NCBI RefSeq assembly: GCF_005771535.1
Contig: NZ_VANU01000004.1
Coordinates: 186,001 to 250,000, forward strand
Length of the DNA: 64,000 bases
Source: Arcobacter arenosus
Lineage (GTDB): Bacteria; Campylobacterota; Campylobacteria; Campylobacterales; Arcobacteraceae
Direction: 5' to 3'
Shown here: piece after piece, positions 29,112-32,872 of the stretch
Layout: each line of letters begins with the position of its first letter
Numbering within the stretch: the stretch's first letter is position 1
The notes under the pieces: generated by a model
The model's input: the letters and a program-made list of their open reading frames with translations, nothing else
What the model was told of the DNA's origin: nothing
Database searches by the model: none
Made by a program: the position numbers and the translations under genes

Positions 29112-29146
29112 TTTAAGTAATGAGACTTTTTTATGAAGGAGAAGGG

Positions 29147-31501
29147 ATGTTTAAAAATTTGTCAATTAAAATTAAATTGTTGATTAGTGTTATTGGTGCA
29201 ATAATAATTGTTGCTTTAATAAATCAGATTCAATCAATTTATTCACTAAAAACAGAAGCAGAACAAATAATAAAAAGTTCTGAAAAAAGTGCATACGAAA
29301 CAAAACAAGAAGAGCTTAAAAATTATGTCTCATTAGCTTATAAAATCGTTGATTCTTACTATTCGAAAACCGAAAAAGGGAAAATCAAAGATGCAGTACA
29401 AAAAGAAATAAAAGAAAAATCAGATTTTTTATTTTCTATTATTGAAGCTGAATATAAAAAATATAATGGAGTTATCTCAGATTCTGAACTTAAAGAAAGA
29501 ATTAAAGAGATTGTAAAATCAACTAGATATGGAAAATCTGGATATTTTTGGATTAATGATTTTAATTACAAAATGATTATGCACCCGATAAAAGAAGAAC
29601 TAACTGGAAAATTTTTTAAAAATACACCAAAGGTTCCATTTGTTGAATTAGGTGTTGAAGAATTAAATAAAACAAAAAAAGATGTAGGTTTTATTGAATA
29701 CTCTTTTTATAATCCAAGTAGTAAAAAAACTGTCTTCAAAGCTTCTATTGTAAGAGTTTTTAAACCATATAATTGGATTTTAGGAACTGGTGCATATATT
29801 GATGATGTATCAGAACAAATGAAAGCAGAAGCTTTAAAAGCTGTTGCGGAAATGAAATTTGGAAAAACTGGATACTTTTGGGTTAATGATTCAAACCATG
29901 TAGTATTAGCCCATGGAGCAAATGCTTCACTAGTTGGTAAAAATATGGTTGATTTACAAGATAAAAAAGGTACATATCTTTATAGAGAGATTGTTAAAAC
30001 TGCAAATGCAAAAAATGAGGGAGGAATAGTAAAGTATTTTTGGACTATTCCAGGGAAAGAAGGTACCTATGAAAAATACTCTTATGTTCAAAATTTTAAA
30101 CCTTGGGATATGATTATTGGAACAGGTGCATATGTTATTGAGATTGAAAATAATGTAGCAGCTATGAGAGATAATATTAGAGAAAGTATCAATTCAAAAA
30201 TATTAAACTCATTACTTATAATTGCTTTTATAATAGTTATTACAGCATTAGTAATTATTCTTCTTCTTAATAGAATTGTGATTAATCCATTAAATAAATT
30301 TCAAAATGGTTTATTAGAATTTTTTAAATACATAAATAAAGAAAAAGTTGATATCCATGAAATGGATATTTCAGCAAATGATGAAATTGGTAAAATGACC
30401 ACATTAATTAATGAAAATATCATTAAATCAAAAACTATTATAGAACAAGACAACAAATTAATAGAAGATGTAAAAGCTGTTGTAAATCATGTAGGTGAAG
30501 GTTATTTAGATAAGAAAATTACTTCTTCAACAAATAACGAATCTCTTGAAGAATTAAAAAGTTTATTAAACCATATGCTTGATAATCTTCAATCATTAAT
30601 TGGTAAAAATATTAATGTGTTAAGCCAAACTCTTCAAAGTTATGCAAACAGAGACTTTACAGCTAAACTTCACAAAGATAGTGGTACAGTTGGTGAAAAC
30701 ATAATAAATATGAATAGAATGATTACAAAAATTTTACAAGACAATCAAGAAGATGGTTTAACATTACAAAAAAATTCTAATGAATTAACAATAAATGTTC
30801 AAACATTATCTTCAAATGCAACTTCACAAGCGGCATCTTTAGAAGAAACAGCTGCAGCTATTGAAGAGATTACTGGAAATATTAGACAAACAAGCCAAAA
30901 AGCCCAAGAGATGTCAACTATCTCTTCAAAAACTAAACAGTCAGCAATCACAGGAAAAGATTTAGCAAGTAAAACTGTAAATTCTATGGAAGATATAAAT
31001 AACACTGTTATAAATATAAATGAAGCAATTACTGTAATTGATCAAATTGCCTTCCAAACAAATATTTTATCTTTAAATGCAGCAGTTGAAGCAGCAACAG
31101 CAGGGGAAGCTGGAAAAGGTTTTGCAGTTGTAGCACAAGAAGTAAGAAATCTTGCAGCAAGAAGTGCAGAAGCAGCAAAAGAGATTAAAGATTTAGTTGA
31201 AAGTGCAACAATTAAAGCAAATGAAGGAAAAGAGATAAGTAGTACTATGATAAAAGGTTTTGAGGAGTTAGAAACAAATATCACGGGAACAAACCTTTTA
31301 ATTGATGATGTTACCTTTGCTGCAAAAGAGCAAGATGTAGGAATGTCACAAATAAGTGATGCTATTAATAAATTGGATAAATTTACACAAGAGAATGCTT
31401 CAATTGCCGAAAAAACAAACTCTATTGCAAAAGAAACAAACTCTATTGCAAACGATATAGTTGAAAATGTAAATTTAAATAATTTTGAAGGAAAAGCCTA
31501 A
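29147..31501 (+). CDS. Methyl-accepting chemotaxis protein with tandem Cache sensor
   Basis: A 784-residue chemoreceptor from the start at 29147, which follows AAGGAGAAGGG. Membrane helices near residues 10-30 and 345-365 bracket a periplasmic sensor with two sCache_2-type repeats. Each has the signature [20 protein letters not shown] and [19 protein letters not shown] near residues 130 and 245. A HAMP region and a long helical linker lead to the signalling domain, whose hairpin tip [29 protein letters not shown] lies near 635-663 (quoted in part: [14 protein letters not shown]). There is no C-terminal CheR pentapeptide. Ligand unknown; such tandem sensors often bind small organic acids. Confidence 0.93.
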
Positions 31502-31553
31502 AAAACTTCAAAAAAAAAGAAAATAATACTATTGTGATACTATTTTCTTGTAA

Positions 31554-31591
31554 AATATTCTCATAATTAAAGGATTAATTATGAGAATATT
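31554..31591. promoter_or_regulatory. 38-bp palindrome enclosing a start codon
   Basis: Left arm AATATTCTCATAATTAA (31554-31570) and right arm TTAATTATGAGAATATT (31575-31591) are perfect 17-bp complements. The four-base loop is AGGA, the Shine-Dalgarno, and the right arm holds the ATG at 31581. As RNA it is a strong hairpin that buries the start codon; as DNA it is a long operator-like palindrome. It also lies 53 bases past the chemoreceptor stop. Confidence 0.8.
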
Positions 31592-32162
31592 AATTTTTAA
31601 CACCAATGAAAAAGATACTCAAAATTTAATTTCAATGATAAAAATCTTTCCAATCGACATTATTGTTGATAAAGCATCCACTTATTTTGATACTATGAAT
31701 TTTTATAAAAACCATTCTTATGAAAAAGTTTTTATTGATATGGATAATGATGAAGGGAAAAAAATTACAAAAGAGATTTTAGATATTTATCCAAATCAAA
31801 AACTATTTATGATGGGAGATGATTATAACTGCACTTTAGAAAAAAACTGTAACTCATGTGGAAAGGAACATTCAAAAAGTTTAATTATAAAACCAATATC
31901 ACAAGTAGAACTATGCAAAGTGATGAATAATAGCTTTGAATGTGAATGCAAAGGTAAGTCAATGAAACAATTTGCCATTGATAAAATTAAAAAAAATATT
32001 CAAAAAGAGTTTCCTTATTTTGATTTTGAAATTAACCAAAAAGAAAAGATAATATCATCAAGCCCTATGTCGATGCAAATATTAGTTTCATTTATAAGTC
32101 AGTTAGAAGAAAATGATATCTCATATGAGGTTGAAAACTTTGAAAGAATAAACCTAAAATAA
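31581..32162 (+). CDS. Receiver-like protein with cysteine cluster
   Basis: A 193-residue protein. Residues 1-110 follow a receiver (CheY-like) pattern: MRILIFNTNE strand, phosphoacceptor-like Asp in FIDMD near 53, and Lys in IIKPIS near 104. The acidic pair after strand one is missing (NTNE), so it is probably degenerate. Inserted near residues 84-97 is C-x5-C-x2-C-x3-H, with further cysteines near 112, 121 and 123, enough for a zinc or iron site. The C-terminal 60 residues form an unassigned alpha/beta segment. Placed after a chemoreceptor, it could be a redox-sensing chemotaxis adapter; that is inference. The start codon is in a long palindrome. Confidence 0.6.
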   Translation: MRILIFNTNEKDTQNLISMIKIFPIDIIVDKASTYFDTMNFYKNHSYEKVFIDMDNDEGKKITKEILDIYPNQKLFMMGDDYNCTLEKNCNSCGKEHSKSLIIKPISQVELCKVMNNSFECECKGKSMKQFAIDKIKKNIQKEFPYFDFEINQKEKIISSSPMSMQILVSFISQLEENDISYEVENFERINLK

Positions 32163-32197
32163 TATAAATCTTATATCCTTTAAGATACCATTTCAAA

Positions 32198-32872
32198 ATG
32201 GAACTACTTGATAAAGAACACCTTATTTATCTTCTTGATTTTGATAACTTTGATTTCCCTAGTTTAGACATGATGAATGATGATCTTGTTGCTGTTGGAG
32301 GAGATTTTCATCCACAAAGATTAATCAATGCTTACAAAAATGGAATCTTTCCTTGGTTTATTGATGAATATAATCATATTCATTGGTTTAGCCCTCAAAA
32401 AAGGATGGTTTTATACCCAGAAGAATTCAAATTAACAAAAAGTCTTAAAAGAACAATAAATAATAAAGGTTTTGTTATAAAAAGTAACACTTGCTTTGAA
32501 GAAGTTATAAAAAGTTGTTCAAATATAAAAAGAAAACATGAAGATGACACATGGATTGATGAAAATTTCATTATTGCATATACAAATCTTCATAAACTTG
32601 GAATTGCCCATTCTATAGAGGTTTTTATGGATGAAAAACTTGTGGGTGGACTATATGGTCTAGTAATTAATAATATTTTTTGTGGAGAAAGTATGTTTTC
32701 TCTTGAAAGAGACGCTTCAAAAGTTGCTTTTTACTATTTATGTAACCAAACGAAACAAAATAATATAAAACTAATAGATTGTCAAGTATATAATGACCAT
32801 TTAGCCTCACTTGGAGCAAAAGAAATAACAAGAAAACACTATTTTGAATTATTAAAAAGCACTAATTCTTAA
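32198..32872 (+). CDS. aat: Leucyl/phenylalanyl-tRNA--protein transferase
   Basis: A 224-residue enzyme of normal length. AVGGDFHPQRLINAYKNGIFPWF near residues 32-54 (quoted core: LINAYKNGIFPW), HWFSPQKRMVL near 63-73, and GGLYGLVINNIFCGESMFS near 151-169 are the hallmark segments. It transfers Leu or Phe from tRNA to N-terminal Arg/Lys, making N-degron substrates for ClpS/ClpAP. Weak ribosome-binding site; the start codon is the only in-frame ATG fitting family length. Confidence 0.95.
   Translation: MELLDKEHLIYLLDFDNFDFPSLDMMNDDLVAVGGDFHPQRLINAYKNGIFPWFIDEYNHIHWFSPQKRMVLYPEEFKLTKSLKRTINNKGFVIKSNTCFEEVIKSCSNIKRKHEDDTWIDENFIIAYTNLHKLGIAHSIEVFMDEKLVGGLYGLVINNIFCGESMFSLERDASKVAFYYLCNQTKQNNIKLIDCQVYNDHLASLGAKEITRKHYFELLKSTNS

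Follow-up and report, generated by a model that had tools for sequence, protein, structure and literature searches.

A perfect 38-bp palindrome over the start codon of a receiver-like gene in Arcobacter arenosus, possibly a start-occluding boundary hairpin

Introduction

In IS10 and IS50, read-through protection is provided by a start-region structure that acts on RNA entering from outside, and RNA thermometers and other 5'-leader switches use an A-U-rich stem over the Shine-Dalgarno sequence (SD) or the AUG. In phage T4, the start-occluding hairpins of genes e, soc, 49 and I-TevI act only in longer, upstream-initiated transcripts (PMC3014915, PMC2988022), and the late promoters of gene e lie within the DNA of the inhibitory stem's 5' strand (PMC3014915). 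The tnp gene of ISPpu9 has a translation-blocking structure in its own leader, which is opened by a small RNA (PMC8450116).

Here, a palindrome over a start codon of Arcobacter arenosus is compared with these systems. It lies in a stretch of 64,000 nucleotides (contig NZ_VANU01000004.1, positions 186,001 to 250,000), which is called the window and whose numbering is used throughout. As in T4 gene e, the predicted hairpin pairs the SD and/or the AUG, a candidate promoter element lies in the DNA of the 5' strand, and short transcripts would escape. The T4 hairpins, however, are demonstrated and kept in related phages, whereas the A. arenosus promoters are predicted and the palindrome is without conservation. 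The A. arenosus stem also differs in being nearly all A-U, chromosomal, and situated between a chemoreceptor gene and a receiver-like gene. With ISPpu9 tnp it shares a structure over the start region and lower translation, both predicted here, but unlike for ISPpu9, IS10 and IS50, no mobile element and no antisense RNA were seen at the locus.

Results and discussion

Palindrome and predicted fold

The genes and hairpin elements of the locus are the following:
29120-31501, plus strand: chemoreceptor gene (dCache_2, MCPsignal), co-directional and upstream, source of possible read-through RNA
31484-31515 (approximate), plus strand: weak hairpin at the chemoreceptor stop codon, -6 kcal/mol, without a T run
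31554-31570, plus strand: 5' arm AATATTCTCATAATTAA, bases 1-3 being the final three of the -10-like TAAAAT
31571-31574, plus strand: tetraloop AGGA, most of the SD AAAGGA
31575-31591, plus strand: 3' arm TTAATTATGAGAATATT, carrying the ATG at 31581 and codons 2-4 (Arg-Ile-Leu)
31581-32162, plus strand: gene for a 193-aa degenerate receiver-like protein with a CxxC motif (PF00072, E=0.065; homologue alignment)
32198-32872, plus strand: aat (leucyl/phenylalanyl-tRNA-protein transferase; TIGR00667, 2e-58), downstream gene

A preliminary description of the window had reported a perfect 38-bp palindrome with 17-bp arms and an AGGA loop, and the palindrome search bears out both the structure and its coordinates: AATATTCTCATAATTAA AGGA TTAATTATGAGAATATT is a perfect inverted repeat at 31554-31591 with arms of 17 nt that are 100% complementary, without G-U pair or mismatch. 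Only two pairs of the stem are G-C. RNA of 31545-31610 is predicted to fold at -17 kcal/mol (z -4.5), equalled by 0 of 200 shuffles. The description also held that the hairpin buries the SD and the start codon. This applies to RNA begun upstream of ~31556, in which the ATG is fully paired, but the SD core AAAGGA lies partly in the loop. In modelled RNA starting at 31550 the ATG stays paired at 10-37 °C, so a simple RNA thermometer is not predicted; unlike in RNA thermometers, there are no mismatches or bulges for gradual melting. An Rfam scan of 31300-32400 with E up to 1 gave no match to any covariance model.

Candidate promoters

Since the effect of such a hairpin depends on which RNA carries it, candidate promoters were scored with a -10 motif, TTTTTTGnTATAAT, learned from 575 A. 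arenosus upstream regions. The motif agrees with that of C. jejuni, gnTAnaAT, which is used without a -35 box (PMC3847290). Two candidates were obtained:
31538-31543, plus strand: P1, extended -10 TGaTACTAT, best score (5.44), predicted start ~31550
31551-31556, plus strand: P2, -10 TAAAAT, second score (3.71), predicted start ~31563, in the 5' arm

P1 lies 13 bp upstream of P2, and its predicted RNA includes the whole hairpin. The P2 box overlaps the 5' arm, so an mRNA from P2 would lose most of it. In the model, the ATG has a pairing probability of 1.0 in RNA starting at 31550 or upstream (z -5.6 for the 31550 transcript). From a start at 31563 the 17-bp stem is gone, and the local fold of about -3.6 kcal/mol (z -0.7) is no better than that of shuffles. 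If transcription started at 31561, ten pairs of the stem would remain and the ATG would still be paired, so that the outcome hinges on a few bases.

Elsewhere in the genome, elements of the P1 type resemble real promoters, judging from aat, which has GATACCATTTCAAAATG and little room for another promoter. In this sequence, at 32182-32198, a -10-like box stands ~7 nt before the ATG, and the aat mRNA is probably leaderless or nearly so, with a very short leader at most.

The translational switch considered in the preliminary description is possible, but the hairpin may be missing from the gene's own mRNA, as the 5' arm may contain the -10 box from which that mRNA is made. If transcription instead starts from P1 (~31550), the hairpin would head every own transcript, and translation would have to wait until heat, a protein, a helper RNA or cleavage opened it. 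Such a leader switch is a doubtful alternative. P1 is the top promoter match, its TGATAC element is common to A. arenosus and the homologues L002 and L009, and a predicted fold of -17 kcal/mol would strongly inhibit. Yet there is no known opener, and both the empty Rfam scan and the stem that stays closed at all modelled temperatures count against it.

Frequency in the genome and the terminator reading

The survey covered 2.45 Mb of the 3.13-Mb A. arenosus genome (GC 28%) and found 107 perfect palindromes with arms of at least 13, the longest arm being 19. Eighty-five are found no more than 90 nt from a gene 3' end, 12 are intragenic, 9 are elsewhere intergenic, and one, 31554-31591, covers a start codon; these classes are approximate, since the script used to call gene starts was a simple one that took the longest ORFs and weighted the start by its SD. 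In 1.25 Mb of the genome there are two palindromes with arms of 17, and four order-2 Markov simulations gave ~0.5 palindromes with arms of at least 16. Of the start-covering repeats at the 1308 genes whose upstream gap is 40 nt or longer, the one described here has by far the longest arms, 17 against 13 in the next. Start-covering repeats of at least 10 number 8, against 0.8 in shuffles that do not keep promoter words (~10-fold). The excess is the same for divergent and co-directional neighbours (4 vs 0.4 expected in each class); the idea that it was specific to co-directional neighbours was tested and rejected, divergent genes being equally enriched. By these measures the palindrome exceeds chance. 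The preliminary description needs one correction: long palindromes are common in this genome in the form of terminator-like hairpins, and the position is the unusual part.

The high share of palindromes near gene 3' ends bears on another proposal of the preliminary description, a terminator of the chemoreceptor mRNA. The palindrome begins 52 nt after the chemoreceptor stop, and in size, A/T-richness and distance from the upstream stop it is ordinary among the terminator hairpins of this genome. Its G-C pairs (2), tail (T at 7/12) and energy (-16) fall within the range of 227 hairpins at the genome's own gene 3' ends. Moreover, the chemoreceptor stop-codon hairpin, -12 to -19 kcal/mol in five related genomes, is weak (-6) in A. 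arenosus. A Rho-independent chemoreceptor terminator that overlaps the next gene's start by chance is nevertheless unlikely. Two G-C pairs are few, the tail AATATTAATTTTT is interrupted by A's, and a consensus scan finds no terminator. A transcript from P1 would be ended too, and no other perfect palindrome of this size among the 107 overlaps a start.

Gene order varies in this region. In A. arenosus the 193-aa gene lies between the chemoreceptor gene and aat (31502-32197 compared with L057-L063 and L066). In G005, the orthologue adjoins aat and a GGDEF gene separates it from the chemoreceptor gene, and in several other same-genus genomes aat directly follows the chemoreceptor gene. With 80% identity between its aat and the aat of a Halarcobacter MAG, the A. 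arenosus genome falls in the Arcobacter group.

Start regions of homologues

The homologue search covered 60 relatives, the 16 genomes of the same genus and 104 of the family. Only 2 of 39 distinct homologue starts, those of A. arenosus and L009, have a perfect inverted repeat with 6 or more pairs over the ATG; the other 37 of the 38 remaining starts, L002 included, are without one. The orthologues retain the 3' arm, which is coding, but not the 5' arm, so that on the sequence side the independent drift of the arms, named in the preliminary description as evidence against a functional stem, is largely observed. On this sequence comparison the palindrome is not a conserved element, and as nearly all related genes are without it, it may be an oddity of one species. 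In G005 the syntenic orthologue (48-49% identical) keeps TGATAC at nearly the same distance from its ATG (about 45 nt, against 43 in A. arenosus), has no palindrome, and has a divergent upstream gene. In L003-L007, orthologues from the same genus, TACAAT or TATAAT stands 5-6 nt ahead of the ATG, and these genes are probably leaderless.

The exception to the lack of conservation is the distant L009 (24% identical, other genus), with ATACTTTCAT...22 nt...ATGAAAGTAT over the start. Compared by eye with the A. arenosus stem, two pairs are changed on both sides, G-C to A-U and A-U to G-C. L009 and A. arenosus also have the promoter element CTATTGTGATACYATTT in common. A -10-like hexamer stands at the 13-nt spacing of P2 in both L002 (TAAAAT) and L009 (TATACT), and in L009 the P1-type promoter scores 6.92 and the P2-type 4.71. 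The L009 repeat with its two covarying pairs would speak for a leader switch. However, the modelled L009 leader from the P1-type promoter prefers another fold in which the ATG is only partly paired, and the absence of the repeat from L002 and 36 other homologues argues against it.

A restriction to one species would also be expected if the palindrome arose by replication template switching or arm homogenisation, without selected function, the 5' arm being copied from a 3' arm that is pinned by coding sequence and SD. Template switching makes perfect hairpins in one event, and a single event would leave perfect arms in one species (PMC8794818). This is what the palindrome looks like, with its restricted occurrence and its arms without G-U pair or mismatch. 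In addition, A/T-rich -10 boxes (..AAT) and start regions (ATG..ATT) would be prone to mutual complementarity. Against such an origin, the palindrome lies exactly over the promoter and the start codon, and start-covering repeats are in excess over shuffles, with the reservation made above on promoter words. The distance from TGATAC to ATG, counted by eye, is also about equal in A. arenosus, L002 and L009 (roughly 43, 45 and 46 nt), so nothing was simply inserted. This origin is considered rather unlikely.

Just upstream of their TACAAT box, which ends 5 nt before the ATG, L003, L004, L005 and L007 have two 11-bp direct repeats GAGACACTTTT (10-11/11 identical). The promoter there is probably controlled by an activator and leaderless. 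In L016, AGTACCTTTTA occurs twice. The tandem repeat of L003-L007 (GAGACACTTTT twice) was considered as an activator site common to all homologues and dropped; the A. arenosus repeat is 9/11, which 11% of shuffles match, so such a common site is not claimed.

The encoded protein and the operator reading

Across nine homologues, the best PF00072 match has an E of 7e-4. In this protein family C90 and C93 are invariant and a KP motif is conserved (alignment A1), and above cut-off it falls under no Pfam or NCBIfam family. Within the Arcobacteraceae it is patchy, with multiple paralogues in some genomes and five in G024. A protein search of named genome contigs gave no close relatives of the 193-aa protein, and the family profile had no match in the aat-anchored contigs L179-L197 (Halarcobacter, Poseidonibacter, Arcobacter and others). 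A single-sequence structure prediction reached a pLDDT of 43 and was set aside.

The dyad symmetry across the -10 region and start site could suggest that a repressor, possibly the 193-aa protein itself, uses the palindrome as its DNA operator, and an autoregulatory operator had indeed been proposed. The analysis gives this no support. Domain searches matched the 193-aa product to no DNA-binding family, and a perfect 17-bp symmetry with coding sequence in one arm exceeds what a dimer site needs. No second operator-like copy was found in the genome: with 0-1 mismatches the two arms themselves are the only matches, and with up to 2 mismatches there are 10, at the level of the reversed control (12). 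An operator is therefore very improbable.

A possible start-occluding boundary hairpin

The analysis shows the palindrome, how rarely one covers a start, its predicted fold and the order of the genes. The gene's own start site, the read-through and the repression are inferred, and we tentatively read the palindrome as an RNA-level start-occluding boundary hairpin (probability about 0.36). Transcripts entering from upstream, above all chemoreceptor read-through, would fold the 17-bp stem. This would pair the AUG and hold the SD in the 4-nt loop, and the 193-aa protein would not be made from upstream-started RNA. The hairpin may also end part of the transcription arriving from the chemoreceptor gene. 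The gene's own RNA, by contrast, would start in the 5' arm from P2 at ~31563, keep a weak A-U remnant only and thus be translatable.

This reading is the first choice because the chemoreceptor gene is co-directional, its stop is 52 bp away and its stop-codon hairpin is weak. It is also favoured by the resemblance of the palindrome to the genome's own 3'-end hairpins in G-C pairs, tail and energy, and by its absence from G005, where the upstream gene is divergent. The perfect stem over the AUG (z -4.5 to -5.6) is lost from a 31563 start, the -10-like TAAAAT overlaps the 5' arm, a -10-like hexamer stands at the same spacing in two homologues, and the layout is that of T4 gene e and T4 I-TevI (PMC3014915, PMC2988022).

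Several points stand against the boundary hairpin. P1 outscores P2 in both A. arenosus and L009, and a P1 mRNA would carry the whole hairpin. Start-covering repeats are as enriched at divergent neighbours, where read-through matters less, and in L009, where alone among the homologues a similar repeat is found, the upstream gene is divergent too. The remnant predicted from a start at 31561 would still pair the ATG. Finally, the palindrome is conserved in no close relative.

A possible wider class

It can be asked whether the A. arenosus palindrome is the extreme case of a class. In A/T-rich Campylobacterota, the -10/start-site DNA of some genes might be complementary to the start-codon region, whereby only RNA from the own promoter would be translated and upstream-initiated RNA silenced, a chromosomal, promoter-coupled form of the T4 gene e device. 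Such a class is quite unlikely, and an RRM RNA-binding-protein gene of A. arenosus (G000:C2:145792-146055, minus strand) would be another member. This gene has AATGTTCATTA...TAATGAACATT, the 5' arm starting in the -10-like GGCATAAT and lying upstream of the predicted transcription start. An inverted repeat of -10/discriminator DNA with the start codon is present in 5 of 16 same-genus genomes (L258, L269-L272) and absent from 11. In the four genomes other than A. arenosus the repeat is 9 bp long; three of them share AATGTTCAT...ATGAACATT, and the fourth has AATATTCAT...ATGAATATT, changed on both sides (one pair, in L272). This repeat fits the boundary-hairpin idea, though as weak evidence. An acetyltransferase-like gene (G000:C3, start 278574, minus strand, joined contig) has a 13-bp repeat TTTTAAAATCACT...AGTGATTTTAAAA over its GTG start, with the 5' arm upstream of a TATAAT box.

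Conclusion

The palindrome is real and odd in its position, and the boundary mechanism is plausible and of a known kind, though unproven and without conservation. If the hairpin silences upstream RNA while the gene's own RNA starts inside it, the device of T4 gene e would also insulate chromosomal genes, and such insulation would concern neighbouring genes in gene-dense, A/T-rich bacteria. If it does not, the locus is a clean natural case in which a palindrome covers a start codon. It would then also caution that predictions of start-occluding hairpins in such genomes stand or fall with the position of the RNA 5' end.
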